The notes under the pieces: model-generated
Databases searched by the model: none
What the model saw: the letters and a program-made list of their open reading frames with translations, nothing else
Told to the model about the DNA's origin: nothing
Shown here: positions 881-53,900 of the stretch, in pieces
Layout of the letters: every line of letters begins with the position of its first letter
Numbering within the stretch: the stretch's first letter is position 1
From: Sphagnum magellanicum
Taxonomy: Eukaryota > Streptophyta > Sphagnopsida > Sphagnales > Sphagnaceae
Reading direction: 5' to 3'
Assembly (NCBI GenBank): GCA_021904315.1
Contig: CM038916.1
Coordinates: forward strand, 4,278,001-4,342,000
DNA length: 64,000 bases
Position numbers and translations under genes: made by a program

Positions 881-1602
881 CAATTTTGTGATGTAGCCAA
901 AATTCTGGAAGATTATTTAGCCAGATGTGGCGATAAGAAAATATGAAAGTGAAAAAAATCTAGCATCCTTCTATATTTCTGGCTACCTGCCGCAACTTAG
1001 GACAGAATCTGGCGATTTTTTTTTTTGTATCGAAATTTGGCGAGAAAAAACTCCAGAAACAGAAATTTTTCGCCAATTTGAAAAACAATTCGCCAAAAAA
1101 AACCCCCTGTTTCCGAGAGTGCAAATGTGGGAGAGTTTTAGGGTTTGGAGATCTTGGCAAACGCAGTGTCCATCTTGACGTAGCGATTCTTTCTCGCGCT
1201 TCGGGGACCGGAAGAAAGAAAATCGCGGGGAAGACGACGACAAACAATTATCGGCATTGGTTGTTCTTTATGATTTTCTCCGACTTCGTTGTCAGTGGGT
1301 TGGACCTTTGGAAGACTGCCAAAAAAAAACCTTCTTTTACCGACAGTTGCATTTCCAGGGATTGAGAGCCCTGCAGAGGGGAAGGGATTGAGAAGGTCTG
1401 ATGTGGAAGGGATTGAGAGGTCTGCGGAAGTTTTTTTTTCCCTATTTCGGATGTGGCTAGTTTCTAGATTTGGAAATCGAGCATTTTTTCTGTATAGAAT
1501 TGACGAGGAGTTGGGAGACTGATCAAGCAATTTTTGTTGTTGTCGTTGTCGTTGTGGGAAGAAAGAAGAATCGACGAGAGAACTTCGGATTCTGATCAAG
1601 AG

Positions 1603-3054
1603 ATGTTGAGGTTCTTGTTTTCATCAGTTGGTTCATGGCTGATCTTTGTAGTCAAGATGCCAGGGAGCATTTTGCTTCCCCGCAAAAATGACCACCACGA
1701 TCGTCAACGGTTTCTTGAGCGATCATCAGAGGGTGAAGCTGCTGTTGATGAGGATGATGAGCAGCAACGGCAGCAGCAGCAGGGATCATCGAGATCTGCC
1801 CTCGTCGCCGCCGTAGCAAAGTTGGACTCCACTCTGTCGGAGTTGGATCGAGCAAATGCCGTCATCGAAACCTTACGAACAGAGCTGCAGGAATCTAGAA
1901 TTGTGCAAAGAAATTTGGAGAAGAATCTTGAGGGGAAAGTCTCGGAGCTCAAGCGGTTGGAAGATCGTCTCCAAGCGCAGAACACGGAGCACAATGGCAG
2001 GTTCTCGCAGCTGTATCAGGAGGCGGAGAACGTCAGACGTCGGAACAAGGGACTGGAGCAACGGAACCGGAAGCTAGAGGAGGATATCAAGAGCCTGGAG
2101 CAGGAGAAAGCCAAGTCCTACATCGGAGGAGAATCCTTCCGCGACTCCGGTCCGACTCCGCATCTCCTGGTTGGCGCGGTGGAATGTGTGCAGCAAGCGG
2201 TGAGCAGCTTCGCCAAGCTCTTTGTCGACTCTTTGCGCAAGCTTGATGTAGACTGCGACCTTATCGCACGCAATCTAGTGCCGGCTAACGTCGTCATGGA
2301 CGTGACGACAGCGGCAGATCGCAAGTTCGTTTTCCAGAGCTTCATTTGTCACGTGATGTTCTCGGAGTTCGAGAACGAGTGCTTCGGCGTCCAGGCCTTT
2401 CAGTCACGCACTCTGGATCACGAGCAGTACAGGAATGAGAGCTTCGGGCAATATCAGGGTTTGCGCAACGTAGAGGATCCCGGGAAGCTCGTGTATGCGC
2501 CTGCGCCGGACAGCTTCTTCCGCAGCTTCTGTGTCCACAAGTACGAGACGCTCACGCGGGAGCTTCGGAGCTACATGAATGCTCCGGAATCTGATACAAA
2601 TTTGGCAGCAATTCGCTCCAAAATGGAGCAGAAATTCCTCAAACTTGCGCAGTGCGTTTGGTTGATCCACAGACTGGCTTTCTCCTTCGACCCCATGGCC
2701 AGAATCTTTCGTGTGCTTCCTGGCATGTCTTTCGATGAGATGTACATGCATTCTGTGGTGATGGGTGGTCATGGGTACGAGGAAGATGATGATGGTGGTG
2801 GTGATGCTGGCATGCGCACTGAGGAGGTTGTGGTGCCCACTGTGGGACTCATGGTTGTTCCAGGGTTTTTTGTGCGAAGAATCATTGTCAGAAGCAGTGT
2901 CTATTTGGTCACCAAGCCCTCACTCTCCAGCAGCAGCATGAGTTCCAATGTACCAGAACATCATCAGGCTCTCACCATTGCTAGTGAGAACAACACTACG
3001 AAAGAAGATTCAGAAGAACTAGCAACCACAGACCTCAGGGGCTTGACAGAGTGA
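1603..3054 (+). CDS. GIL1/IRKI-like DUF641 protein
   Basis: Intronless gene of 483 codons plus stop if the first ATG (1603) is used. A second in-frame ATG at 1657 begins MPGSILLPRK and may be the true start. Residues about 75-190 form an acidic and basic coiled coil (leucine-rich, with EKNLEGK, LEQRNRKLEEDIKSLEQ). The rest matches the plant GIL1 / IRK-interacting protein family. It has LVGAVECVQQAVSSFAKL, a block ending FQSFICHVMFSEFENECF, FCVHKYETL, FLKLAQCVWLIHRLAFSFDP, then a C-terminal VGLMVVPGFFVRR block. GIL1 acts in light suppression of gravitropism, and related proteins bind receptor kinases at the plasma membrane; a similar role here is inference. A long acidic/glycine insert (EEDDDGGGD) precedes the last block, and a serine-rich tail follows. 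CpG-rich DNA from about 900 to 1600 is the likely promoter and 5' leader. Confidence 0.85.
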   Translation: MLRFLFSSVGSWLIFVVKMPGSILLPRKNDHHDRQRFLERSSEGEAAVDEDDEQQRQQQQGSSRSALVAAVAKLDSTLSELDRANAVIETLRTELQESRIVQRNLEKNLEGKVSELKRLEDRLQAQNTEHNGRFSQLYQEAENVRRRNKGLEQRNRKLEEDIKSLEQEKAKSYIGGESFRDSGPTPHLLVGAVECVQQAVSSFAKLFVDSLRKLDVDCDLIARNLVPANVVMDVTTAADRKFVFQSFICHVMFSEFENECFGVQAFQSRTLDHEQYRNESFGQYQGLRNVEDPGKLVYAPAPDSFFRSFCVHKYETLTRELRSYMNAPESDTNLAAIRSKMEQKFLKLAQCVWLIHRLAFSFDPMARIFRVLPGMSFDEMYMHSVVMGGHGYEEDDDGGGDAGMRTEEVVVPTVGLMVVPGFFVRRIIVRSSVYLVTKPSLSSSSMSSNVPEHHQALTIASENNTTKEDSEELATTDLRGLTE

Positions 3055-7952: not shown

Positions 7953-9290
7953 GCGCGCGCCCCCACTACCATCGATATTTCCCAGTGGTTCTTCACAATC
8001 TCAGGAAGAAGAAGAAGAAGAAGCACTTCATCCCGTTTGCGACATCCAGGAGGAGGAAGACTCTGCGCCGGTCTTGTCCTTCCCTTGTAAATGTTTTTTT
8101 TCTTTGGCTTTCCTTCTGTTGCCAGAATTCTCTAGAGTTTTGGCATGCTCCTTTTCCTCTTCTTCGTTATCGTGCTTTCTCTCGTGAAAGCGTCGAGATC
8201 TGTCGATACCGAGAACGAAGACTTTCTCCACGAAGACTTTTCTCCATTGTAGCCGTTGCCAAGCTTGAAGAAGCAGCAGCAAACTGGAAGGCTTTTTTCT
8301 TAGAAGCCACTCCTCAACATCGGGGCGGTCCTCTCCTCCTCCTCCTTAATACCTTTGCAATGGAGCACGGAAAACGGAGGAGAAATGGAAACAAAAACAC
8401 AAAATCTCTTCTTCTTAGGTACTTACGTGATGCCGCAGCACAGACAACACTTCCGAGTCGAGCATGGAAGAGGATGGAGGAGCAAAGACCTCGACGAAGA
8501 ACGCCACCTCCAAGGTTATACCAGAAGAGCCCATTTCGAATGATCCATTTCACGAGGCACTGGAGAAACTACCTACATTCAACGGAGAAAGGAAACGGGT
8601 GCAACAGAGAGGAACTACTACGACTACTACTACTGTCAATTGCGAAGAACAGGAGCAGCAGCAGCCATGCAGGATCCTCCGAGAAAGAAACACCAGAAAC
8701 GGTGGAGAAGAAATAGAGACAGACAGACAGATAAAGAGTGACAGAGGGAGGGGGAGAAGAAGACCCGGAACTGGAGCATTTCAGGATCTGAACGAGCGAT
8801 TTCAATCAGAAACGAGCCTCCACGATAACGCATGCGAAACAACAACGCTCCAAAACTGTTGAGGGAGGAAAAGGGAAAGAGAGGTTGCACGCTTTTCTTG
8901 AGGTTTGGAAGATTGCAAGCAGCAGCCGGTACAAAACAAAGCAAAATAAAGCACAAGCAGATCAACCAAAGCGAATTCTTCCCCCTATCCAAAAAAACCA
9001 AAAAAAAATTCCTCTTTTTCTGTGCGAGTTCGGGAAAATTTTCGACGATCGGTTACAAGAAACGGGAGCAAACAAATTGGCCCAAAAAAACACGCACAAT
9101 TGTGCACTCCGTGGATTGTTGCCGCGGAATCGTTCGCTCGCGAGCGTCGAGAGCGCAACGACGAGGAGGCGCGACGCTCGTCCTCCACGTCTCAAAAGAG
9201 AGGTCCCCAAATCCGAGATCCCAATACGTTTGGGACCTCCCTCGGGGGTCTCAAGTCTCAACTTTCAAGCCGTGGTAGATTGGTAACTTA
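7953..9290 (-). promoter_or_regulatory. CpG-rich upstream region of membrane-protein gene
   Basis: The region immediately upstream of the minus-strand start is purine/pyrimidine skewed and CpG-rich, above all at 9000-9270, which includes the palindromic core TCGCTCGCGAGCG at about 9130. At about 9290 the sequence changes abruptly to AT-rich, CpG-poor DNA. This fits an unmethylated promoter island bordering methylated repeats. Long overlapping frames on both strands here come from base composition and show no domain. Confidence 0.5.
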
Positions 9291-12200
9291 GGGTGGGTAA
9301 AATTGTCCCCGAGGGGGGGTAAAAGTTTACCCTGATTTAAATTTTAACAATGACAGCACTTTCCAATAAAACACTAGCATTTTGTCATAACTAGGTATTA
9401 AAATAGTAATTTTAAAAGATTAATTTTAATTTATAAAATAATTTCTATTTAATTATTTATTATTAATTTATAATGGCATTAAAAAGGCACAAACATTAAA
9501 TATTAACAAGGTGTTGGGAACATGTGGTGGGAACCCTAATCCTTGTGCCCTATTTTCATATCTTACTTAAAGAAATTGGAAGAAATTTCCAAAAGGTAAA
9601 TTTGTTTTGTATGTGTATTTATATTTTCAATTGATATATATTTTTTAAATAATTAGGGTTTTTAAGTGTATGACACAATGATTTGAAATATACGATATGC
9701 AATTTTTTTTATTAAATGTTGGTTAGTTTTGCTTGAACTATTTTTTGATATGAACATGCGATTAACAACCTTGGTAAATTACTAATATGATATTTAAATT
9801 TCTTATTAGTGCTAGTTGAATATGCTTGTGTTATTTTTTTATCTAAACATGTGATTGATAGTCTTGCCCAACCAAAAAATTATATTAAGAAATTATATTT
9901 TCATAATTTATGTCACGAAAATAATCTTAAAGGTTGGAAACCCTTCTTAGTGGGATAATTTTTTCGCATTTATTTCTCATTGTCAATGATTTGTTCAATA
10001 TTCATAATGTTTCATATTAATGTATTTGTAGGATCTTCATCTAATATTTTTTCAAATTCATTTGCAACATTTAGATGTTTTTGTTTTTTTTAAGATGAAC
10101 ATGGTTTTCAATCATTCTTTTCACTTGCATTTGCAAATTCTTTTTTTTTGGGCCAATTCTAGCATTTTGAAACCTTTGTGTCAATGTATAAAAAAGTTTC
10201 ACAAAATTATTACAAAGCTTTGATTATTATGTTTGGTTAAACATAACCTAACACAAATATAAATTAATATATTTTTTTTTAAAAATTTAAAAACAACAAT
10301 TGATGAATCATCATATGGCATTTGTGGCATTACATTTTGTACAAAACTTTAATGTGACTACATTTGGTATTTGTTTCATTGGGAAAGTGATAGATTTGTT
10401 GATTGTAACATTAACAAATATTATTTCAATATTATTTTCATTGTTATAGTTTTTTTTAACTATCATTTTCTATTAATTTCTTATTGGATTTTCACTAGAC
10501 ATGTGTAAGATGACATGTAAGTTGTAATATGTTTAGATTCAAAAACAAATGTGTAGAAAAAAACATCAATGCAATTTCTTATGGTTTCCATTTGAGATGT
10601 TTGTTTAGTATTTTTAATATTTTAAATTTTAATTCAAAGTTCTAAAGAAACTTACCAATTTATTAGACATTGGGTTTTGGTAATTATGTATTAGTTAGAC
10701 CCAATGTTTGATCAAATTCCAATGGCCATAACCAAATACATGATTGGGCTATGTAGATGCATGTTAGGTCTCTTTGTGACATATATTATACATATTATGT
10801 ATTACATTTTTTTTTTTCAATTAGATGTGGGCAAAAAAAATGTGAGTCCATGCTTATTTTGTTAGTTCCTAACATTAAACAAATAGCTTTTTTTTAAACT
10901 ACACAATAAATGGATGCAAAGTTTTTTTTTTGCACAAAAAATTGCTCAAAGAGCATCAAACTTGTATGCTAAAAAAATGTGATGTAGGTAGGCTTGATGA
11001 ATTTAAAAACTAGTGTGTTTTGATGTAGTGGTCATATTATTTGCTATTAATTATTTCATTAATAACCTTTCATACTAATTTTAAACATCAAATCTTGTGT
11101 GACATATTTGTCCCGCTTGTTACTATCAAATTGAAAAGTGTTTGATTTATTTAAAATTTGAAAAAACAATTATCGACAATTAACAACAATATGTCAATTA
11201 ACACATCATGGAATGATGTATCAAAGTACCAAAGTTATTTACTATACAACCCAAAATAATTTAATTCATTCAATCAAAGAAACCTATTAGATTATCCTCA
11301 AGAAGATGATGGCAAACCCCATATTTTTTCCTTGTCTAATGGATTGAATTCAATTGTTGAAAGCACCTCCTTTGGAACTCTTAGAAATAAATGTCCTTAA
11401 TTAAGTATTAAAACAAGAAGAAATAAGTTTCATGTACTCGTTACATATTAACCTTGAAATTGTAGGAAAATCTCAAAATACTTTACCTACAAATGAAAAG
11501 AACACACATGATAATACAAGACAAATTTGCTTGTTGTTTCCCACATGTGACCATTGATTTGATTTGAATAAATTCTACACACAACTTTCAAATCCACCAC
11601 AAGTTCCATGCATTAATATTGAAAAATTCATAATGTTTAACTTCAATCACCCTAAATGTCAAGATGTTTTGCTCGATTTCATAATTCAAAACAAATTATA
11701 TTGTAAAATCTATGATGAACAAATTACACATTAAATTAAGTTAGAAGTTGCATAATATCAAAGAATCAATTAAGTTTTGACTAGTATTTTGCAATTTTCT
11801 AAGCATTACATGGAGTTCTACCAAGGTTTTTACTTGGATTTATGGATCCAAATTGATGGGTCAAAAAAAAATAAAGACCATGGGTACGGTCTAGCCACCC
11901 TTTCATAGGAAAGGAGAAACCTTTCTTGAAACCCAACCAATTGCACAATATTATGAAAATTTATAAATTGAACCTTGCTCATTACGTAAAAGATTGATTG
12001 TTCTTGTTAATCAAAAACTAAAATAATTGAAGAATAATAACTATCATTGCTATTAATGTTGTAATGCCCCAACATTATATGTGCACATAGTTGTTATTGT
12101 AGGCAATACAAAAGTCTCACTTGCCTCTTTTTTTCCTTGTCTACCTTTAGTTCCATTTATGTTTTTCTCAAAAAAGGATGGATGATGCTTAAACACACTT

Positions 12201-15601: not shown

Positions 15602-15983
15602 GATCTTGGCTTTTGGTCGCTCTCAACCTAAAGCACATATATGGATCTTGGCTTTGGGTTGCTCTTAACGTAAGCACATGTGGATCTTGGTTTTGGGTCG
15701 CTCTTATCCTAAGCACATGTGGATCTTGGCTTTTGGTCACTCTTAACCTAAAGCACATATATGGATCTTGGCTTTGGGTTGCTCTTAACCTAACACACAT
15801 GAGGATCTTGGCTTTGGGTCGCTCTTAACCTAAGCACATGTGGATCTTGGCTTTTGGTTGCTCTTAATCTAACCAAATGTGGATCTTGGCTTTGGGTTGC
15901 TCTTAATGTAAGCACATGTGGATCTTGGGTTTGGGGTCACTCTTCACCTAATCAAATGTGGATCTTGGCTTTTGGTCGCTCTT
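15602..15983. repeat. ten-unit minisatellite with higher-order pattern
   Basis: Ten tandem units of 39-42 bp each start with GATCTTGG and contain a TTTTGGTCGCTCTTAACCTAA-like core. Units cycle in threes: units 1, 4, 7 and 10 carry CTTTTGGT; units 2, 5 and 8 carry CTTTGGGTTGCTC; units 3, 6 and 9 carry TTTGGGTC or TTTGGGGTC. So the array grew by copying roughly 120-bp trimers. Open frames on both strands across it (repeated ATQSQDPH-type peptides) are a result of the repeat. Confidence 0.9.
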
Positions 15984-26233: not shown

Positions 26234-26607
26234 CTGCCCATCCTCACACCACCTTGCACACAAGCCTAAGATGAATTTCCAATTTTCTGTGCAGAAAAAA
26301 GACTCCAGAAATTGGCGTGCAGAGACCAGGGCAAGGCACACCTGCTTGAACAGAGCACACAACTGTCAGGTTTTCTTTTCTTACAGATGGGAATCATATG
26401 TGCTGTAGATTGGTATGAGAAACCTAGTTCTTTCTTAAGAGGAACTTTTTGGGCACATTGACTTCATGGGTACTTTTTGGGACTCGAATGTGCATTCTTT
26501 CAGTACACCCTGGAGAAGTTGCTGCCCTTCTCATTAGGCAGACATGGAGTAGCACAACTGACTGGGTTCCGGGATGGCAGTTGGTGGCTGCAAAACGTGT
26601 ATTGCAG

Positions 26608-27159
26608 CCAGGACATTATGAACTACAGGGGGAGGAGCGGCTTGGAGCCTCTCTCATAATATCTCCGCTTGAAGGAAATGGGCTTGATATCTCCACATGC
26701 ACCATTCAGTGGCATCGTGAGTCAGCTGACAGGAGCAAGGGTGGGCCTATAACAGGTGAGCATCACACTGTAGTAGTGGAGGTAATGCAACTGAGGAACA
26801 AACCAAACTTTGATCTTTCTGCCTATTTCTGTCAAAATGTGGACAATGACTGGCACCCCAAAGTAGTTAGGTTATCTCATGTCTTAGTGCAAGCTGCACA
26901 ACTCAGGGAGTACAGGCCAATGCAGTTATTTCTGGATAGTGACTCCAGGAGACCACACCAGAAATTGAATCCAGGCTCTTTTGCATGCCTAAGGATTAGT
27001 AACTTGCATCTTCACACTTTTATTTGTGAGTGGTTGCAGGTGCCACCAGGCCTCAATATGCACTGGAACCTTTTGATGTAGGCTGGATCTTGCGGGTAGG
27101 CCTTATTCTGCCAGGTGGTAAACAGGAAATCCTTTCTACTTCAGGACCTTTAGATGCAG
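26608..27159 (+). pseudogene. SCAB-like Ig-PH domain exons, fragment
   Basis: Two plus-strand exons, 26608-26755 and 27040-27159, join in phase 1 (ACAG/GTGAGC donor and TTGCAG/GTGCC acceptor). They read YELQGEERLGASLIISP, LDISTCTIQWHRESADRSKG and GPITG, then ATRPQYALEPFDVGWIL and LPGGKQEILSTSGPLDA. This matches the start of the fused Ig-PH domain of plant SCAB proteins (family pattern YEIDGTEALGS, LSKCTIQWYR, ISGATK..YAPEPFDVGR). The second exon ends in a GTACAT donor. The 284-bp intron is open in one frame, giving a misleading 210-codon frame (26449-27081). No downstream PH exon was recognised and the preceding coiled-coil exon is inverted, so this is probably a broken gene. A working gene with unseen exons is less likely. 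Confidence 0.6.
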
Positions 27160-30519: not shown

Positions 30520-31925
30520 TTAGGGTTTAGTGTTTAGAATTTAGGGCTTAGAATTAAGGTTAGGGCTTAGGGTTTAGGATTAGTGTTTTTGTCAAGGATA
30601 TAAGGTTTTATGAGCTGTGTTGATGAACCCAAATGCATTATGATGACACAAATGGAGCACCTTTTTTTCTTCTTCCACATCATGTAGCACCAAGCTAGTA
30701 TGAGGCACATACCCAGTATCATGCATGAGCCCTGACAATCTCTACAGTTCTGCATATATTTCAGTCATCTGAGGATGATCTCGATCGTATACTACAAATG
30801 TATTGACCTCATTATTCACTTCAATCCAGGTGTGACCTGGTTGTTTCTTGACACCTTTTTCCTTTCCCTGCAGTTCAACATTCACACAGAGATGCCTATT
30901 GCCAGTAGCAGTGTAGATGTTTGCAAGAGCACATAACTAGCAGCATTTTCAAGCTCCAATTGAGTTGAAGCTTATCAGGTACTTCATAAATGTTGCTTCC
31001 TTAACCTAAACCTAACAACTCTCTCATTAGTCAACATATTCATGGTGCATCATCAATTAAATAACCTCAAGGGTAGAAAGTTGCATGATTATATCCAACT
31101 ACCCAACATTTTTCAGTTACAAAACAAAAAAAATTCATCACTTTTGTTGAAAAATAAAAATAAAAATAAAATTACTAAACTGCACGCTTCAATTCAAGGT
31201 TTAAGGTTCAGGGTTTTAGGGTTTAGGGTTTTAAAGGATTAGGGCTTCAGTTCAGGGTTTAAGGTTCAGGGTTTTAGGGTTTTGGGTTTTAAAGGTTTAA
31301 GGTTTAGGTGTTGTTGGAGCAATTTTGAAAGTTGTAGATTTAGGGTTAGTAAGGTGTAGGGTTTAGGGTTTAGGAAAAGGATAAACAACTACTGTCCATT
31401 TTTTGAAATAAGCAGCATTTTTAAATTACATTCAATTTAAGGTTTAGGGTTTAAGGTTTTGGGGTTTTAGGGGGTTAGGGTTTAAGGTTTATAATAGTTG
31501 GACCAATTTTGAAAGTATCGTCTACCTATTGTGGAATACCACATGTTGAAATGTTAATATAAACCCATATGATCTTTAAGGTTTAAGGTTTGTAGAGTTT
31601 AAGGTGGTACGGTTTTAGGGGTTTGGGTTTAGGTGCTATAGGTGTCACAAAAAAATTGAGTGTGATCTACCTAGCGTGGAAAACCACATGTTGGAATGTT
31701 GTTATGAACTTGGACCTTTAGGGTTTAAACTTTTAAAGGTTTTAGGGGTTAAGGTTTAAGTGTTATAGGTGTGGAACAAATTTGAAAATAACATCTACCT
31801 ATTGTGGAAAACCAAATGTTGATATGTGGTTAAAAACCTAGATATTTAAGGTTTAGGGTTTTTAGGGTTTAGGGTTTGAGGTTTTAAGGTTTTGAGGATT
31901 TAAAGTTTAGGTGTTGTAAGTGTTG
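30520..31925 (+). repeat. telomere-like TTTAGGG satellite blocks
   Basis: Clusters of TTTAGGG, TTTAAGG and GGTTTAGGGTTTTAG variants occur at about 30520-30595, 31195-31380, 31435-31490, 31570-31640, 31705-31760 and 31845-31920. Between them is a recurring unique part of about 100 bp with a CATCTACCTATTGTGGAAAA-like core and an ACCACATGTTG block (about 31500-31560, 31655-31705 and 31785-31835). So the unit is a compound of telomere-like and non-telomeric DNA repeated about every 140-165 bp. It is internal, not a chromosome end, because it is imperfect and flanked by long unrelated sequence. Confidence 0.75.
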
Positions 31926-34084: not shown

Positions 34085-34152
34085 GATGGTGTGTTCCATT
34101 GGTTAAGGACTTGGTTTATCATTATGGAGGTCGAGGGTTCAATTCCTAAGAT
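34085..34152 (+). repeat. tRNA-derived SINE-like sequence
   Basis: TGTTCCATTGGTTAAGG (A-box-like) and GGGTTCAATTCC (B box, one base from consensus) are separated by about 35 bases with GGAGGTCGA between. The arrangement equals the D-arm to T-arm layout of a tRNA, but no matching acceptor stem closes it. A SINE head or tRNA fossil is therefore more likely than a working tRNA. Confidence 0.4.
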
Positions 34153-37100
34153 TATAACTTATGTACATGCTTAAAGGGCTAAGGTAGGTAGGGTAGGGTA
34201 ATAGAAGATACTAGGTTCAATTAAGGTAGGTTAAATACAATAAGATAGGCTAGGCTAGGCCATCACCTACCATTACTACAAAAACATGGATTTTATGCCC
34301 TTAACAAAGTGACTACATAATGGTTAACCATGGTTTTTCCACTAAACCAAAACATAAGTATGTCTAATTTGACTAACTTAGATTAGCATTGTAGTCACAT
34401 CATTAGTAGAAATCTTCAAATATATGATTGAAATTTATGACTAGTATTTTAGTCATAAATGACAAATAGCCCTAAAGTCATTATGGACGAGTTGTTTGAG
34501 ACAATAGTCATTTAGGACATATGTGAAATCATTAGTGATAGTTTAATTATTTTTTATTATTACAAATTGGACCTAAAAACTTGGGAAACGGTACTTTTAA
34601 ATTTTATAATATTTATTATTATAGATTTATTATATGTAATATAAATAATAGGACGTATTTTTAATCTCATTATTTTCATCCTATCAATTATTAACACATG
34701 TCACCACCTAAACTAAGTTAAAAACCTATTTTAAGTGGATAAATAGACCACCTAATCTACTTACTTAAGTTCGCTTAAATAAACACCTAACCTAGGTAGT
34801 TTTGGTAGGTGTGAAATATTTAATCAATATTCCAACGTTGACCACAAAACATGTCATTTGTAAAGTTTGATCCTTGGATTCCCAAGTTTGGAATTCAACT
34901 CCACTACTACCAAGCCATCGCACTTGTTGTGTCAATATTCTAATGTTTATTTTATTTAGCCATACTTCATTTAAACATTACACAAAATTTCAAATATGAT
35001 AAGTTGTACTTTATTAATAGTTTGTCCAGATGAAAAACTTGAAGACTTATTCATAAATTTCCTTCAATAATGTATACAACTATATAATTTTTTTAAAATG
35101 TAAATTAATTCAAAGGAAAATTATTAATTTTTTTTTATTGAATAACATTTCAATGATCATACTTTGAAAATATTAAATTCAAACACATGATGTGTAAATG
35201 AAAAAACCTTTATAGCTAACACATGAATAAATAAAATAAATAATTCATATCTTAAACCTTCATTTGGTTTAGGAATTTATACTACAATTTTTCTTTTAAT
35301 ATATCATAATTTTACTAATAAGCTTTAATTTACATGTATGAATCCATGTAATTTATCCACATAAAATATTTATTAATGGATCATAAATCAATTACATCTA
35401 TATAGATTTATTAAAAATTATGTGAGTCATACTCAATATGATGTATAATTCAATCTAAATAATTTAATAATTGAATAATATAAATTAATATTAAAATACT
35501 AAATAATTTTCTGAAATTATAATTTTTATTCACTTTTACACAAGTAAAATAAATTTATTTATTTTTATAAATATATTATATAAATTTTCATTTAAATTTA
35601 TGATAAAATTTTAATAAACAAATAATTATATGTTTCTCACATCTTACACTTCTATTTTAATATTGTAAATTTGAGATATAAAAAAATGTTTATAATATAT
35701 CATACTTTTACCATTAAAGTTTATTTCAATGTATAATATTTAATTTAGTCACATTGAATATTTAAAATGGATTATATATCAAGTATATTAAAAAAATGTA
35801 ATAACTTTTTTATTGTATTACCTATATGTATAATATTAATCAAAATAATTTTTTTACATATTGTAGTTGATTATGTCCATTTGTACTCATATTTAATTAC
35901 TAATATTCACTTTTGAATAATTGAAAAATAATTGTATGACCACTTAGGGTACCGCATCATCTAAGGTTAATGATTATATAATTATACAAGGTGCCACATT
36001 GTCCATGTAGTAGTAATTACGTAGTCATATATATAAATCATTTTATAAGTTTCCAAAGTTTAAAATATAAGTGGGATCCATTTTCCAATGACAGAAGATA
36101 TTATTTAATGAATTAAATATATAAAATGACACAACATCATGACAATATTTTCCACGTTTGAAGTAATTGAAATTCAGTCATAAACTAGAATTAGGTATTT
36201 CATTACTTGAAAAAATGATAGCTATATAATCCATGTTGATGTCTTATTCTCTAGCACACATTCGAAAACCATAATGGGTGAAATATGGTCGATGGAAAAT
36301 GGATGAACTAAATAGACCACCCACATTGGTGGAGATTCAAAAGGAATGTGATAAAGTGAAAAGTTGCAACTGGAAAAAGGACCGAAGTGGAAGGGGATAA
36401 GGTTAGCTTGAAAACCCTAGCCCATTATATGGATCGATCTTATTTCAGTTAATGTGATAATGTGGTGGTGCCATGTAGTTGGAGGCTATGTACATATATC
36501 ATTTTACAGAATTCTTTTGGTGGTATAAAGTGGGTGGCAATTTAACTATTAATGAATGGTTGTCATTTTGTGATGCATATCTTTATATGAAGGCACCTTG
36601 ATTGTTGTAACAACATTGTTGTGTTAAACTATGATGATGATCTTGTCACTTAATGCTCATTTGAACCATGTTGTAGGTGGTCATCAACTACAGAGTTGAA
36701 CATAGATATATGTTATTTATTTTGGATGGTTTAGAGGTGATGTAAGTGAAAAATGATAGCTTGTAATAGGTGATTAATGATGGCCATTAAAATTGTGTTG
36801 ACTTTGTTACCCTTATAAGAAGGTGATGGTATGGGTTATGATGGTGTCGACAATGCAATTGGTGGTCTTAATGAGATTGAACTTTGATTAAAGGTTGTGG
36901 AGAGCAACCATGAAGAGATGAGATACACCCAAGATGATATAATCCAAGGCCAAAAACGAATATCAACAGTGGTGGAAAAATTGTTGGTGTATATGGAATC
37001 ATTAAGGATTGGTCAATGCCCTTGATTTGAATATGAAGGGCATAAAAAAAAGTGATGCCAAGTTAGGATCATTTGATGGCAATATGGGAATGGTAAGGCA

Positions 37101-37515
37101 TTATATTTGGTAGAAAATTGCATCATTTGGCAAAGTTGTTGAAATTGTTTGATTCACTAAAGTCAATTTAAAGGCAACAAATAATTGTTGGATTCAAGTT
37201 ATTTAAAGTATCTTTGATTCATTAATCCTTTTCTAATGATGAATTTTTGTTTAATTTTCTTTGAAATGCATGAAATCAGGGGGTTGGCTTGACTTCATCA
37301 CTTGAATAGACTAACAAGGAGGATGAACAAACACTAATGGACTAAGAGGATGGGGTTGGTCATGCTTTAATTATAGATGCTCCATCAACCAAGGAGATTA
37401 TTGCTGTCAAGGACGACATGTGATGGGAATGGTAGAAATGTCCAAGTCATTTCATGATTTTGATCTTCATGTAAATTGAGATAGGCAAATTCAATAAAAT
37501 ACATGAGCACAAAAT

Positions 37516-38320
37516 TTGGGGAATGGATCCAAGATGATAATGTCAACAAGTATCCTCAAGAGTGGCATGACAAATTCTCAACATATTGTTGCCCCTAGAG
37601 AGGTGAGCTTTGAGTCGTTGGTGCCATACATGTGCAATCATTCTCCAAACCAACTAGTAGTTAGTAAGACCCGTTATCTATTTGTGTTAGATGTCAATGG
37701 ATTGTTATGTGTTACTCAACATTTGAAATCTACAAAAGCATGGAAACCTTTTTTTTTGCAATACGGTGTGGAAAAAAATTAATAAGCCTTCGGCCAAAAT
37801 CACTTCAATTCTTGTAATTATGTTTTTCACAATTTGACATTGGGATTTGGTTGTCAACTACATAGCCTAATCTTGTACCTATGGTTGAGCTTTTGTTAGG
37901 AAGTAGCTCAAGGTTGAAACCTGTGTTTATATGGGGCAATGAAAAGTGTGATGTGACATGAAGTAAACATCCACTAAATCTAGATAAGGAGCTTATATTG
38001 AAAAATATGAATAATATGGTTTTAGAAATCAGCCCTAGATTTTGAAAATTAAGTCTATGCAATATGTTGTTGATAGATGATTGCCTTTATGAGTGTGTTG
38101 GCAATGTGCCATTTTTGTATATCTTACCCCAACCATTAATCCAAAAGTAGAGGACAATCACTTGTTGGCCAATCTATGGCCATACTTGCTTGGGTTGTTG
38201 GAGGCTCCAAGTACTTTAAAGTACATTGGTTATAATCCACATGGGCAACGATGGATTACAAGAAAGCACCCGCATTGGTTTGCCATAAAGGCCTTTGCAC
38301 GGTCTTTTAATTTTGCTTAA
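37516..38320 (+). pseudogene. FCP1-like HAD phosphatase fragment in transposon
   Basis: Three collinear blocks in three frames follow the plant FCP1/NIF-type phosphatase pattern. Block 1, near 37665-37760, reads RYLFVLDVNGLLC, equal to motif I (L-D-x-N-G-L-L). Block 2, from 37839, reads IGIWLSTT, stop, PNLVPMVELLLGSS and later KPVFIWGN. Near 38061 it gives NMLLIDDCLYE, the second acidic motif, and VGNVPFLYILPQP. Block 3, at 38153-38290, reads DNHLLANLWPYLLGLLEAPS and NPHGQRWITRKHP, matching the family's C-terminal D-N-x-L...YL-x-GL...HPFGQ pattern. In-frame stops and frame changes show it is not functional. It is spliced-looking (little intron DNA remains) and wholly inside the CACTA-like element, so it was probably captured. 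Confidence 0.55.
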
Positions 38321-38691
38321 CTAAATGGAAGTGAACCTTTAAACCCAAATATCTATTTATTTTCATGCAATTATACTTTAGATTTTTTGTATTGTTAGAC
38401 TTTTAAAAAATAAATATAGTTATGCTTAAGACCAACATATGTAATTTTAATAATGTGTTTTTGATGTGCAAAAATCAAGGGCTATTATAGGCACTTCAAA
38501 AGCATCAACAGCATCAATTTTGCCCCCCCCAAAAATGATAATCAAAACTCTAAAGGTTATCAACTAGCTCTGAGGTCACCAACAAAGGAGGCAATTAATA
38601 GATTTGCTAAAGAAATTTGCCCAAATGTAAATCAATTACAATTTTGTTTGAATTTAGAATTTAGAATTAATTGTTGATACTAAATCTATGA

Positions 38692-38994
38692 TTGTGGATT
38701 TTTGATCTAATTAGATTATGCATTTGTGTGAAGTACAAAAAAAATGTCTTCATGATTACTCATGAACGTAAGGATTGTATAATTGGCCATTTTGTCAAAT
38801 TTGGAGGTGGAGATGTAGTGCATCATAACCATACCATGCATGAAGAGTGTATTTCTATTGCTATTACATCTTGTGTCTTGGTTGGTGTTCATTTGCCATA
38901 TTTAGAGCATGATCATGATCATCCATTTTGCACAATTGACAATACAATTGGGTATATCATTTTGTGGCCTTGGAAACTCATGACAAAATTCTAG
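38692..38994 (+). pseudogene. DUF8039-like transposon domain fragment
   Basis: This 100-codon frame reads RKDCIIGHFVKFGGGDVVHH, then HEECISIAITSCVLVGVHLP, and DNTIGYIILWPWKLM. The order (Cys-hydrophobic start, His-rich middle, V-x-V strand, L-P, then a D-x-x-G-x-x-I-x-W-P end) resembles the DUF8039 domain found in plant CACTA-derived proteins. It lies in the right half of the 5.6-kb element in the same orientation as the phosphatase fragment. I cannot see a flanking transposase. Confidence 0.35.
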
Positions 38995-39439
38995 TAAGCA
39001 TATGCATTTTCCATATTTGCAACCTATAGGTTTGATGCTAACTATTCATATTTTGTGCACTACAAGTAAACTTTCCAACTCTTTGGACATATTAATATAT
39101 TTCAAGATGCCCTCATGTGTGTAATATGTGGTGCATTTTAAGATGTTGCAAGTGGGTGAATGTTATCAATGCTTTATGTTTTGTGAGGATCTAGATTCCT
39201 ATAACTATGTGTAAATATATCAAGTGAATCATATAGGAATTAAGGTTAGGGGTAGGTCAAAATATTGTTAATTAATTATATCTAGTACAGAAAATCAATA
39301 ATAGATTTAGACATCTAGCATTGGCCACATAAATATATAAATGTTCATCTTAGTCGCTCTATTAGTCAACATAGACATGACATTTGGCACCTACATTAAT
39401 TACTATTAGGCATCATGTCATATAGGCTAGAAGACAACT

Positions 39440-39660
39440 TGGTCATAATAGACATGATAGTTGGCACCATGTCAATTGAAATTTTAGTTAACTTTGTAAA
39501 AAAACCATGCCACATGACACTCATGTGAAATCAAATTTCAATTACCTAAGTAAAAAGCCATGCCATTTGGCACCCATGTCAATTGAAATTTTAGTTAACT
39601 TAGTAAAAAAGTCATGCCACTTGGCAATTATGTGACCATTTTCTAGTCACCTAAGACATA
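39440..39660. repeat. subterminal repeats of the CACTA-like element
   Basis: Units of about 55-60 bp with GCCATTTGGCACCCATGTCA and AATTGAAATTTTAGTTAACT blocks recur three to four times, each with TGCCAC/TGGCA dyads. They sit next to the TAGTCA motif cluster at the element's right end and look like its subterminal repeat array. Confidence 0.55.
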
Positions 39661-39922
39661 ACATTTGTCACACAAGTCAGTTATGAACTAGGTCATTTTT
39701 GTCATAATGGATGACTATAAATCAACATACACTATAATCATTTTAGTCAATTCAAACAAGGCATGAATGACTTTAGACATTTAGTCACATTTAAGGCTTA
39801 AATCATTGGTTTTATTTTTATTGTAACCAAATTTGTTTGTAACCAAATTTGTCTTGTGTATGATATGACTAAAAATTCAATCATAAAAACTAGCATAAAA
39901 ACCTAGATATGTAGTAATGTAC

Positions 39923-42800
39923 CTACCTGCCTTTTTATGACCTACTTATTTACCTACTTGCATTTTTACAACCTACTTACTTACATGCCGCAATTTTTTT
40001 GATATGAGTAGAAATTTGACCAATAAAAATTTATAAATTTATCGAAGTATTCATATATTTCAATCCATGATGGTCATGGGTTAATGATGATGAATGACAT
40101 ACACAGATTTAAATTCTTTCAATACAATAACTAGTGATGGCTCAAAATATATAACAACTTTTAATATTTATACACAAAAAAAAAAAAGTTGTATGTGTGT
40201 ATACATTTCATTCATGTTCAATTTTTACATTCCTAAACAATCTTCAAACTATTATTCAACATTCTTGTAAACAATGTCCATCATCACTATGGGAGATTTT
40301 AATGTTGACCTTCTAAATGACAATAACCAAGCAAAAATAAACAATAACTATTAGATTTCATGGATAAATTATAATTAAAATCACAATGTAATGAAAGCAC
40401 CACAAAAGTTAGATTTCAATTATACCAAATATGGGCAAATGTCTTTAGAATGAATGCAAATTTGGTGTATTAGAAGCATATTGGTCGAATTTTCACAAAT
40501 CGATTTATTATTGCATTCAAATTACCAAACATACTTCCAATATATAACAAAAAATCATTAATATCTTCATTTATGTAAAATGTAACATTTTTGAAATAAT
40601 TGATTAGGTGAAAAATATAGCATTTACATGCATATAATGTGGCTTAAATTTGACTTTTTACATTTTTTTCATGGACCATGTGCAAAAAACAAAATCATAA
40701 ATATCAATAAAAATATGAACAAAAATTTGGATGATTTTTTTATCCACACATACACCCATCAAACACAATAACAATACACCTTTTATAGAAAACCTTAAAC
40801 CCAAAATGTGATAAATTTTTTTATAAGAGTTGCCAAATTCTCAAACTTAAAACTGAAAATGAAACGAAGAATAAAAAAACTTCTATCTAAATTATATCCA
40901 TTCATTATTGATGTTTGTTTCAAACATTGAAATATTTCATGCACATTGCCAAAATTTGTCTACATTATTCAAGTTTGAAAAACTTGGATTTTCTCAAACA
41001 ATATGATTATTTACAACTATATTTCATTTTTATGGTTAAATAAAAGACACTGGGTTTATGGTTTCAATTTGTAAATATCCACAATGAAATCTAAAGAAGG
41101 TTAGAATATTTTTTTTCTTGTTACAAATGTGAGAAAAATATTTTCATGGTCTTTCATAAAGCCAACAAACTTTCTTTCAATATAACTTGGGTTCATAGCA
41201 GAACATTAAATATATTACCTTATTTTAAAAACTCTTGTGATAGAACCACTTGTTTCACATTATCTTTGACACCCATATCATACATCATTATAAAATTGTG
41301 ACATTTTCATGGAATGTTGAAATATAGCAAAATGAATAAAACATATTGAAAATATATGTTTTCAAGATGCTTTTGTAATCAAATTGGTTGATTGTATTTA
41401 TTGTTGAAGCTTTTTTAAAAAACAAAACAAAGTTGTGTGTTGCTTAGATTATCTATTAGTTCTAGCCCCTCAGCTTTTGTCCTTTGAAATATTTGTAAAT
41501 GACATGGACATTACAATTAAATGTAAAAACAAGCATGAAATTAAGTTTCAATTCTCCACAATAATTCCAAGCATCATAATTTGATTCATGCAAGCTTACA
41601 TGATAGTTTTTTACAATGCATAAATTTTGAAAGTCTTCTCGTGAAACTAACACAATTGAATGTTGATATGGTGGTAGATTAAAAAATTAACAAAATTTGA
41701 AAGTCTTTGAGTGAATGAAACTAACATGTTTAAACTTCCAACCTCATGTGGTTTCCAATTTTAACATCGTCTATAGAAATATCTCTCATATTTTGACTTT
41801 AACATTACGTGAAAATCTTCCAATCTTGGGTGATTTATAATCAACAAAGGAATGAACTTGAAAGCCCTTTGCATTACATTGAAAAGGTGGGGAATTCACT
41901 TAACAATCAACTTTTTTTCTCCCCCAACATTAATAAATTGTATTGACATTGGTTAGAAAATTCAATAAATTTGTAGGAGCTTTAAAATCAATTGTCTAAA
42001 ATAGAAAGAAGGAAAAAAAGGCTTGGACTTCTTGTTAACTAATAGGTTTCAATTATCGTGTAACAATGGGCATTGACAAGTGCCAAAAAATCAACCTTTT
42101 GGGGAAGGGGGGGAAGGGTGTAGTGACCAAATATTTGGCAATAGTCAATCATGTTTTGATAACATTTTGGAAGGATGTTGAAATGCAACCATGCATGCAA
42201 ATAGACTTAGAACTTACAATTAAAATAAGAAGTTCAAAGCTTGTGGAATGTGGATGCCACAAATTGGCCTTTTTTTGGGGGTAGAGACAATGATTTTGTT
42301 GCCCCCAAAGTCTTGTGGCCACTACCCTAGCTATTTGGTGAATGACTTTTGTGAATTCCTTTTGAATTGGGGGAGTCAACAAATAATTATTCTTTTGAAA
42401 GGCTTGAAAAGTAATTCCAAATGCCTTCGTCCTAAAACAAACTATTTTTGTTTATTAAATATTATCGATTTTTTTTTATGTTTGATATTTTATTTTGTGA
42501 TATTATTTTTTAAACTAGAAAAAAAATTCATTTATCCAATAAGTATCAACAAAAAGAATGACACGTTGGATAACATGAGATTTTTCTAAAAGAATAATAT
42601 CGAGAAAATATTTTGAGATTTAAATTTGAAATGGTAGTACCTATTCCCCAAAACCTTTTAGATACAAAGGTCTATGTTAGTAGTAGCACATATGATGATT
42701 TCAATTGGATGGCTTCCATTCAATAGGTGTTTTGGTGCATACACATGGATTCAAAAAATTGGATGTAAAATAATTATTTTGGAAAATAAATAAAATTCAA
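39923..42800. other. AT-rich intergenic DNA, no gene seen
   Basis: The first 70 bases are CCTACTTAC-type repeats. The rest is stop-rich and CpG-poor. A frame at 42248-42589 (113 codons) is phenylalanine- and lysine-rich, as expected by chance in AT-rich DNA. Confidence 0.5.
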
Positions 42801-43045: not shown

Positions 43046-43118
43046 CCCCACCTAAACCTAACCCATAAACCCTAAACATTAAACCTAAACCCTAAACCCT
43101 AAACCTAAATCCTAAACC
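43046..43118 (-). repeat. telomere-like CCCTAAA cluster
   Basis: Several CCTAAACC and CCCTAAAC variants lie in a row, the reverse orientation of the TTTAGGG-type blocks at 30.5-31.9 kb. Imperfect and short, so an interstitial telomere-like repeat. Confidence 0.7.
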
Positions 43119-43565
43119 ATATGTCATGGGAAGGTTCTCATGGTTTTAAATAATAAGCTGATTAAAAAAATTCCCCATCTTGTTGTCGTCCTATTAACTT
43201 AGGAGAAATTTCATCAAATTATTTCCATGAAACTCATACTCTTGGATGGTCCCTTATAAAATATTAGCTTTTTGGAAATTCTCAAGAAGGTGGTGGTGGT
43301 GTTGTTGTTCTTCTTCTACTAAAGAAATTTCCACCCCGTAACACTCAATATGACCATTCCCAAAGTCATTGGTCCAATCCAATCGTATGTTCGGTTCCGA
43401 GCGTCATCCCACTACATGGAAAGTACCCCAAAGAAAAAAAAAAAAAAAAAAAAAAAAGGTTCTTTATGTTCCTAAATTTCTATTCCTAAAACTATTTGTC
43501 AATAATTTTTTGGCCCGAACTATTAGCCCCTTCCAAGGAGCTGAGGTAGGTAACTAGGGTAGTAG

Positions 43566-50900: not shown

Positions 50901-53900
50901 GATCATTCTGGCAAGACTCTAGGTGATGATTCTTTCTTTGTACCAGGTTCTTGTTGTCCCAGCAATAGGCTCCAAATGGAAACTCTTTGTTTTAGTAGAG
51001 CACTTTCAGGCATTTCTATTGAGAATTTATAGCTGAGTGAAACTGGGATGACTAATCTTTTCATGAGAATGCACCTAGCTTTCTGGTAAGCTAATCTGCT
51101 CTTCTTTTACAAGGTCTCTATCATAGTTTTGGATGCTTCCCAAACTTCCAGATAAGGTCTTCTCTGTGTTCTGGTCTTCTCCTTTTGTTTCTTTTGTATC
51201 TTCTGGTTAGAAGGTCTTTCCTTATTCTTCTAGACGTGTTTTGTTTACTTGTAAGGTTTTCTTGTAAGTGTGGAGCTTTTTATAGCCCACTTGGTCCTCA
51301 TTTGTTTACCCCTGTTGTCTGTTATTCTATGTTTTTCTCCTTCTATGTTGTTATGTTGTTAGTTGCTAGCCAGTATCATGGCAGAGTATTCCCATTGTTT
51401 CCAGACTTGTGATAGAAACTCAGTACACAGGTTAGTGGTTACACTGACCTATACCCACTGCAGGTGATAGATAAGTTTCCATCATACATGTTACTGTTGA
51501 TGGTCTGTCAAGTGAAACTGTCACTTTTGTTCATACTGCATGTTTTTATTGTTTCTTTTTTATAGTTTGTACTGTCTGTGTTGTTCCTTCTTCCTGGTTC
51601 TGAAAGTCCTTATCTGCAAGTCTTTCTTTGACTTCAAGGAAAAGTTTTAACTTTGTTCTGGCTTCTTAATTGTGAATATGGAAATTTCTTGATTCTCATG
51701 AGAGTTTTAGTCCTCTTAGTGAGATCACTCTCATAATTTTATTTTTCTCTTTATCAAAACGAGTACAATTTGAGTGGGAAAAGGGGCAACAAATAAGAGA
51801 AGCCAATGTAAGTCAATATCTTATTGATGGCTTTGGAGTCTCACATAAGTTATGACTTCTGGGGTAATTCTGTATTTTTCTGTGCAGCAATTTTGCGGAT
51901 GTATTTGACGTAGACTACTTCATAGATGCTTTGAAAGGGGATGTAAATGTGGTGAAGACACTTCCCAGTGAACTTGTTTCAGCACCCAAAGCTGTGAAGC
52001 AGTTCCAAAGCTGGTCTAATATCAAGTACTACCAAGAGTCAATTGCTCCTTTGTGGCGTGAGTATAAGGTTTATGCCCACCCCCCAACTCCTCCCTTGGT
52101 TCTTCTCTTCTATGTCCTTGATCTTCATTGGAGTAAGCTTCCGAGGAGGAAGAATCAATCTTTCATTTGTGATAAGCAATTGTGAGACTGCCAGTTTGCA
52201 ACATTCATGACTATGTCACACTTTCATGCGCAGAGATTTGGAAATGTAGGAGCTGCAGCTGCCAAGATTCACTCTTAGGGTGCGATAAAGCCCTTGCTCA
52301 GATCAGGGAGTGTCTAGTGTTGTCTGTTAATATTTGTGCCCATAATTGGTTGTGCAGGTCATTCGTGCATCTAAATCAGATTCACGGCTTGCAAACAATG
52401 ATTTACCGGCAGACATTCAAAAACTGCGTTGCCGAGTTCACTATAATGCTCTCCGTTTTGCACCTCAAATTGGTTCTTTTGGGCAGGTTTGTTGCTTTGT
52501 GTAATTGTGCAGTTAATTCAAACAAGGAAGTGAGCCAAACATATCTTAAATCACTTTGGAGTTACTGTCATCTGGCTGAAGCTTCCAGCTTTTACATATT
52601 TTTGTTGTGTGAGCAGAAGCTTGTTGAAAAAATGAGATCAGATGGACCTTTCATAGCTTTGCATCTGCGGTATGAGAAGGACATGCTGGCCTTCAGTGGC
52701 TGCACCTATGGTCTTACTGAAGCTGAAGCTGATGAGCTCTCCAGCATTAGGTACTGTTGTGTCTAGTTGACCTGTTTGTGGTTCCATTTGTCTGCAAGGT
52801 ACAGATGTATAGCACTCTTATCTAGCATAACCATAAGGTAGTAATCACATTCGTGGTTGTAAGCAGTCTCATGATTTTGTCTAGATGGTGTGTGTCAGAT
52901 GTCTGCACAGTGTCCTGTACTGTGGAAGTACTGATTCCATCGGTTGTTAGGATCAAGGAAGTCCTGTTCAAGATTTTATGGGAAGAATTGCTTGTTCAAG
53001 ATCCTGCTCTTACAATTAATGTCTTATGTGCTAATTCTCACTATAGTTTCTCAATTCCAGGAGTCTTCAAGTTGTAATGTCTGAGATGGTGGAAATGACA
53101 TTGCAGGGAGCATACAGCTCATTGGAAGGTGAAGGATATAAACTCCACTGAGCAAAGAAGCAGGGGTTTTTGCCCCCTGACTCCCACAGAGATTGGGATA
53201 TTTTTGAGAGCACTAGGCTACCCCAATACCACCCGTATTTATATTGCTGCTGGAGAAATTTATGGTGGCGATGAACGAATTGCTGGCCTTATTTCTCGCT
53301 TCCCAAATGTGATGCGCAAGGTTCGAAATTATGCTGGTTATTTACTTTAGAAAACTTGGTTGATGCTAGTTGCTTTCACTGCAATAAACATGGAGGAATT
53401 GCTTTGCTGTAGTCATGTCTTCTCTCAGGAGATATGAGGACATATTGAATATATGTTGTGCTTTAAATGTCAGCACAATGATGAGGAATTTGACAAAACC
53501 TGTCATGCCCTCAGGAAACTGTAGCATCTGTGGAGGAGCTTGCACCATTTGTCAGCCACTCTACTCAACTTGCAGCGTTGGATTATATTGTTTCTGTTGA
53601 AAGTGATGTGTTTGTGCCATCCTACTCTGGGCATATGGCACGTGCTGTGGAGGGGCATCGAAGATACCTTGGACACCGCAAGACTATAAGCCCTGATAGG
53701 TATTTGGTATCTGGTTTTAAGCAGATCTTTCTGTTTACTGATGAGTTTTGGAGGGGCATTGTGGAGTAATTGTGCATAGTCTGGGATTTACAGATCATAA
53801 TCTTGATGGTCATTTGGCAATTGCACAATTTTGTTCACCAGTTCTGCCACTGTTGGCAAGCATCACTGTACTAAAGCTCTGAACTTCATGGTCCTGCTTT

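Follow-up and report, generated by a model that had tools for sequence, protein, structure and literature searches.

What is a phosphatase gene doing inside a plant transposon, and did it come from the host or belong to the transposon? The question is raised by a stretch of 64,000 nucleotides from the bryophyte Sphagnum magellanicum (G000:C10:4278001-4342000, hereafter the window), in which positions 34271-39919 hold a CACTA (En/Spm)-type element with a decayed FCP1/NIF-type phosphatase block. A preliminary description of the window proposed that this element had captured a fragment of a host gene. Searches of the genome (438,994,042 bases in 31 contigs) point to a different history. With a probability of roughly 0.75, the phosphatase-like domain is an accessory gene that a CACTA lineage gained a single time in its open reading frame 2 (ORF2) half and put to use, and that has since decayed in this copy. 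The evidence for this is a single insertion, its ends, its copies elsewhere, the architecture of long relatives, the sequence of an internal junction and a codon-position pattern; that the protein served the transposon, that it was gained only once and that events followed the order given below would be the history best fitting them.

The boundaries of the element come first. CATTACTACA begins at 34271 and its reverse complement finishes at 39919, with a TAC target-site duplication on either side (34268-34270 and 39920-39922), just as the preliminary description had stated. (Features of the window are on the plus strand, apart from the two TAC copies and the deletion junction described below, which have no strand.) The end pair alone is weak evidence because the window holds 86 inverted 10-mer pairs with equal 3-bp flanks, 1-15 kb apart, and because the right flank (39920-39984) is a TACCTACC-type array. 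Stronger evidence came from a query in which the 100 bases left of 34271 were joined to the right flank through a single TAC. With the best 40 of 144 candidates scored, at least 45 rows matched, of which two were the window's own flanks and at least 43 lay outside the locus. At least 37 of these 43 cross the join by 30 bases or more on both sides at 71-83% identity, and represent paralogous empty sites of the kind that the preliminary description had suggested looking for. Since the flanks with a single TAC match other repeat copies, the element is one unit within a copy of another dispersed repeat, and a single insertion accounts for both ends. The target repeat itself (approximately 34085-34270 and 39920-40022) is dispersed, with at least 37 places matching across the join. 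Its left portion presumably resembles a tRNA-derived short interspersed element whose A and B boxes would be TGGTTAAGG ... GGTTCAATTCC. No tRNA and no Rfam match was found in the window.

Copies of the ends occur elsewhere, as expected from the proposal that sister copies could be found by terminal sequence. The right-end query gave 31 rows at 30 places, the window included, and 24 of the 30 start at the last base. The left-end query (124 bases) gave 11 rows at nine places, again with the window; at one of these places an 18.6-kb relative on contig C6 has its left end. The left end of the window copy (CATTACTACAAAAACATGG..., 34271-34400) matches C6:15245064, where it reads GTG-CACTACTACAAAAACATGG, and from 34308 onward it also matches a relative on C2. 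The right subterminal region and right end (39632-39919, ending in TATGTAGTAATG) match the right-end copies. In 17 sister stretches read with 200 extra flanking bases, similarity is lost between 39916 and 39943, and exactly at 39919 in nine. The last ten bases are TGTAGTA(A/G)TG in 12 of 18 right-end records and a near variant in the other six; positions in these 18 records are fixed to the query end, and the independent end points are those of the 17-sister comparison. A subterminal tandem array of a 53-base unit (3.1 copies) occupies 39461-39626. Five or more AGTCA/TGACT sites fall within only five of 637 intervals of 300 bp, all at the two ends of the element. The subterminal clusters claimed earlier are therefore concentrated where they were said to be, but their orientation is mixed rather than inverted, and four of the seven left-hand sites lie beyond 34400, inside a second, inserted element.

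Taken together, 34271-39919 is supported as a dead, non-autonomous, shortened CACTA (En/Spm)-type element. Known elements of this type, which encode TNP2 (PF02992) and DUF4218, share with it CACTA/CATTA ends (the window copy has CATTACTACA, and the C6 relative carries CACTACTACA at either end), a 3-bp target duplication (TAC in the window, GTG in C6, none seen for C2) and clustered short subterminal repeats (at both ends, the left cluster being partly that of the inserted element, with the tandem array on the right). Internally deleted copies and movement, here recorded by the paralogous empty sites, are further points in common. TNP2 and DUF4218 pieces are present in the long relatives, TNP2 being found in those on C2 and C6 and in others. 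The differences are that no TNP2 was found in the window copy and that the second gene of the present lineage has a phosphatase-like domain.

The left half of the interval is composite. Positions 34401-36302 are a second, high-copy element which looks CACTA-like from its left end (CATTAGTAGAAATCTTC; CACTAGTAG in L003) and whose right end is missing. A genome search with this segment returned 163 first-look candidates. It matches L003-L008, in whose 3-kb stretches none of the coding blocks of the outer element is seen, and the matches begin at 34395-34400 in L003-L006 and L008 and at 34366 in L007. Similarity to L007 reaches 36310, and L007 itself runs about 170 bases further to an end of its own (...ACTAGTG), which indicates that the window copy lost its right end. 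Alignments of the outer element to the C2 relative and to L032 begin at 36303. The eight bases ATGAACTA at 36303-36310 can be aligned, with a single mismatch in either case, to the inserted element as well as to the outer one, and look like a microhomology deletion junction at which the transposase half was removed. The claim that the interval is one element thus stands for the insertion but not for its contents. As a family, the inserted repeat is abundant and AT-rich, with a CACTAGTAGAAATC end in L003; AGTCA/TGACT motifs also occur near its end, and cross-mobilisation is conceivable.

A composite interval invites the thought that its ends derive from different elements, that the whole is a chance assembly and that the phosphatase half is merely a right-hand fragment. 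The second element and the deletion junction inside the interval are compatible with this, as is an end match that is not significant alone. It is nonetheless the least probable of the explanations considered, given the 37 or more places that match across the single-TAC join, the one insertion that explains both ends, and the C6 relative, in which left end and right end both match.

The decayed phosphatase block spans 37585-38335. The FCP1/NIF motifs reported in the preliminary description are present in order over 37687-38248: LDVNGLL (37687-37707), IGIW (37839-37850), LLIDD (38067-38081) and NPHGQ (38234-38248). They are spread over several frames, with frame changes and with stops in all three forward frames, so the earlier view of this copy as a fossil holds. 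Three further conserved blocks surround it. The upstream block (36819-37110, detected by tblastn) forms a 98-residue open frame in the C2 copy and is broken in the window. A downstream coding block, 'mid' (38489-38674), has profile matches in the window, C2, L032, L034, L035 (= L012), L018 and L021, and partly in L049. The last block (38737-38991, FVKFGGGD...WPWKL) is found in 11 records at 10 places including the window. Three of its carriers, L038, L039 and L043, gave no match to the phosphatase profile. Pfam was also consulted for a known CACTA domain in this last block and gave no match for three copies.

How well the phosphatase assignment holds depends on the copy. The window's own pieces and read-through gave no match to Pfam NIF (PF03031), and L059 (21.7 bits, E 1.7e-4) and L049 (20.8 bits, E 3.3e-4) fall just below the curated cut-off of 21.8; copies at C2:13359024 (30.7 bits) and C3:9089837 (36.9 bits) lie above it. 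A search of solved structures with the L059 frame returned no match. A plasmid collection gave no match either, a result that carries little information here. All five sister phosphatases are broken, and no single open frame spans the whole block at any of 12 further loci. Among the 86 rows kept from the phosphatase search described below, four matches run for more than 100 codons without a stop (C3:6564653, C16:12663254, C7:8331841 and C19:6770863), none of them spanning the 188-residue query. The motif order (LDVNG, IW/VWSS, LLxDD, NPxG) is that of plant FCP1/NIF-type phosphatases, such as the host frame L061, from which the transposon copies differ in being broken and in their low identity to it. 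FCP1 enzymes carry the catalytic signature DxDx(T/V). This motif is absent from the window copy, which has DVNGL, and from L061, which has DVNG/DING; both thus have Asn at the position of the second Asp, and activity would be doubtful even in an intact protein. The block is best termed phosphatase-like, its enzymatic role being uncertain on the evidence of its residues.

In the preliminary description, a single element took up and fossilised a host fragment. Stops in all three forward frames of the window copy agree with such a capture. The same block, however, is found in the sisters L031, L032, L033, L034 and L035 (on C2, C7, C6 and C3) and in distant elements, several with the same neighbouring blocks: sisters on C2, C7 and C3 have the downstream blocks, and those on C2, C7 and C6 have the upstream one. 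Capture by this one element, as originally claimed, is therefore very improbable and is abandoned here: deeply diverged relatives carry the same gene with TNP2 on the same side, and it bears a history of constraint.

Long relatives suggest what the window copy has lost. The 18.6-kb relative at C6:15245064-15263665 starts at the GTG-flanked left end given above and ends in TGTAGTAGTG-GTG at 15263665. It contains DUF4218 at 15249767 (minus strand, two stops), part of TNP2 at 15251136 (minus strand, no stop) and the phosphatase (L033) in two pieces at 15257984-15259601 on the plus strand. The C2 relative has its own DUF4218 (by Pfam) and a decayed TNP2, split by a better kept nested TNP2/DUF4218 element. 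A SET-domain frame (PF00856; G000:C2:13346616-13347413, minus strand) adjoins this nested element and is possibly another accessory gene.

The same arrangement was sought across the genome. The phosphatase search gave 103 rows; two host-gene rows and 15 distant-looking ones (E 3.9e-8 to 9.8e-5) were dropped by hand, some rows that were just as weak but lay close to retained loci stayed, and the 86 rows kept resolve into 59 loci. With the best 150 of 657 TNP2 candidates and the best 150 of 479 DUF4218 candidates scored, neighbour counts are lower bounds. TNP2 lies within 20 kb of at least nine of the 59 loci, upstream in all nine and on the opposite strand in eight. Random placement (2000 runs, with approximate sizes for contigs C4, C11, C12, C18 and C20) gave means of 0.80 neighbours and 0.20 on the opposite strand, with maxima of 6 and 4, and six shifts of all loci gave 0-1. 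When the 15 dropped rows are restored and the two host rows left out, there are 73 loci and still at least nine with TNP2 neighbours. DUF4218 lies within 20 kb of at least six of the 59, always upstream and on the opposite strand in five, against 0-2 in the shifts.

Selection on the protein was examined over 123 codons in 18 copies, with the tip and internal branches of a single tree fitted separately for each codon position. In 11 close pairs (at least 84% identity), differences at codon positions 1, 2 and 3 are 0.125, 0.134 and 0.118. In 122 deep pairs (at most 70% identity) they are 0.318, 0.267 and 0.513, with 20 pairs between these classes. Removal of L033 leaves 0.113/0.123/0.118 for eight close pairs and 0.320/0.266/0.512 for 112 deep pairs, and removal of L034 and L035 alters the figures little. 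Branch lengths agree: internal branches sum to 0.73/0.64/1.93, the 11 short tips to 0.65/0.74/0.68 and the seven long tips to 1.41/0.98/2.48. Because recent copies differ equally at all three positions and differences between old lineages are greatest at the third, the gene appears to have been constrained before it decayed. These positions suggest protein-level constraint in the earlier history and neutral decay once a copy had inserted.

Such a pattern might also have been inherited from the host. The main rival explanation is repeated, independent capture from a host phosphatase family by several CACTA elements, the third-position signal reflecting selection in the host before capture; long branches with a third-position excess would look alike in either case. 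The genome does offer potential donors, as L061 is an open host frame of 594 codons with two tandem NIF domains (146.5 bits over 466 residues scanned), matched across both domains by the profile of the transposon copies, and many other NIF sequences exist (91 matches). However, L061 is only 34-36% identical to the query, compared with 44-98% for 80 of the 86 kept rows. The outside NIF sequences also group apart: the five in the tree, all from this one genome, are separated from the 18 transposon copies by a split with an ultrafast bootstrap of 97, which favours one acquisition, although five is a small sample of outsiders. In addition, the C6 (= L033) and C17 (= L055) copies, which sit on opposite sides of the tree, have the phosphatase at the same position and mostly in divergent orientation to TNP2. 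Repeated capture is thus unlikely, though it has more in its favour than any other alternative. The larger NIF group of 91 matches, many with one to three stops and often paired 1.1-1.4 kb apart, was considered as part of the same family and dropped, as its members L062 and L063 group apart in the tree; it may be another mobile family.

Several observations weigh against the accessory-gene reading. TNP2 or DUF4218 is listed within 20 kb of at least 12 of the 59 loci and for none of the other 47, and the DUF4218 counted for C2 is that of the nested element. Over stretches of 10 kb, L032, L034 and L035 showed no TNP2. Transposase pieces on the same strand as the phosphatase occur at C13:8557898 (TNP2), at C6:3610245 (DUF4218) and at the L036 remnant (TNP2). 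A phosphatase match lies within 6 kb of nine of the 30 right ends and of none of the remaining 21 (20 if the L036 remnant is counted); the phosphatase is therefore common but not universal in the CACTA lineage, or often deleted. The codon-count pairs are not independent of one another. The ends of most deep lineages lie outside the sequence read, the C6 element was read over the final 10 kb and, at the left end, over 30 bases, and the left terminus of the C2 copy is decayed and has no target duplication. Five of the phosphatase loci cluster at C3:6.34-6.65 Mb, where L034, L035 and L041 share a flank and are probably local duplications. As a separate observation, long open leucine-rich repeat frames (LPTSIGQLSALQNL...; 8169-9696, minus strand) in L041 lie directly beside a CACTA right end.

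On the accessory-gene reading, the long form would resemble the C6 element, with TNP2-type pieces running leftward in the left half and the phosphatase-domain gene rightward in the right half, a position that we take to be the CACTA ORF2. In transposition, TNP2 acts on CACTA ends and subterminal repeats. The domain would have been gained once, before the lineages diverged, and kept under protein-level constraint while elements were active, each copy decaying neutrally after insertion. In the window copy, a second CACTA-like element would have inserted 130 bases from the left end, and a microhomology deletion would afterwards have taken the end of that element and, with it, the transposase half. 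RNA polymerase II and small-RNA factors are targets of plant FCP1-like proteins, and for this reason the phosphatase-like protein might be guessed to have worked in transcription or in escape from silencing. More tentatively, a bryophyte CACTA lineage may have turned an FCP1-like domain, perhaps catalytically altered, into a working accessory protein that was kept by selection across diverged sub-lineages and possibly interfered with host transcription or small-RNA silencing; we consider this fuller account possible but somewhat less probable than its negation.

Uptake of extra domains by ORF2 is already known, and the phosphatase-like domain in this half of a CACTA element would be the new feature. 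In the Chenopodium CACTA family 'Jozin', ORF1 is stable and the ORF2 region gains extra domains, among them Peptidase_C48 and Transposase_24; capture of gene fragments is also reported (PMC8978399). Both systems have an ORF2 region open to additional domains; the gains are termed stochastic in Jozin (PMC8978399), whereas here codon positions indicate constraint through diversification. The word phosphatase is absent from the main text of that paper (PMC8978399), and no paper combining CACTA and FCP1 was found among open PubMed Central papers. Accounts of transposons capturing genes usually present the process as random and its products as short-lived. The domain captured here seems instead to have been kept, under constraint, for much of the history of the lineage. 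Whether host enzymes taken by transposons are retained because they benefit the transposon thereby becomes a testable question. Some of the genes counted as FCP1/NIF in genomes of this kind may be transposon remnants.

The remainder of the window includes several further features. Telomere-like TTTAGGG/CCCTAAA repeats, internal to the chromosome, flank it on both sides at 31186-31884 and 43051-43121. Pieces of host genes encode a GIL1/IRKI C-terminal domain (1504-3054), a SCAB actin-binding Ig domain (26428-27081) and an O-fucosyltransferase domain (52176-52766), and a tandem array of a 39-base unit in 9.6 copies occupies 15602-15983.

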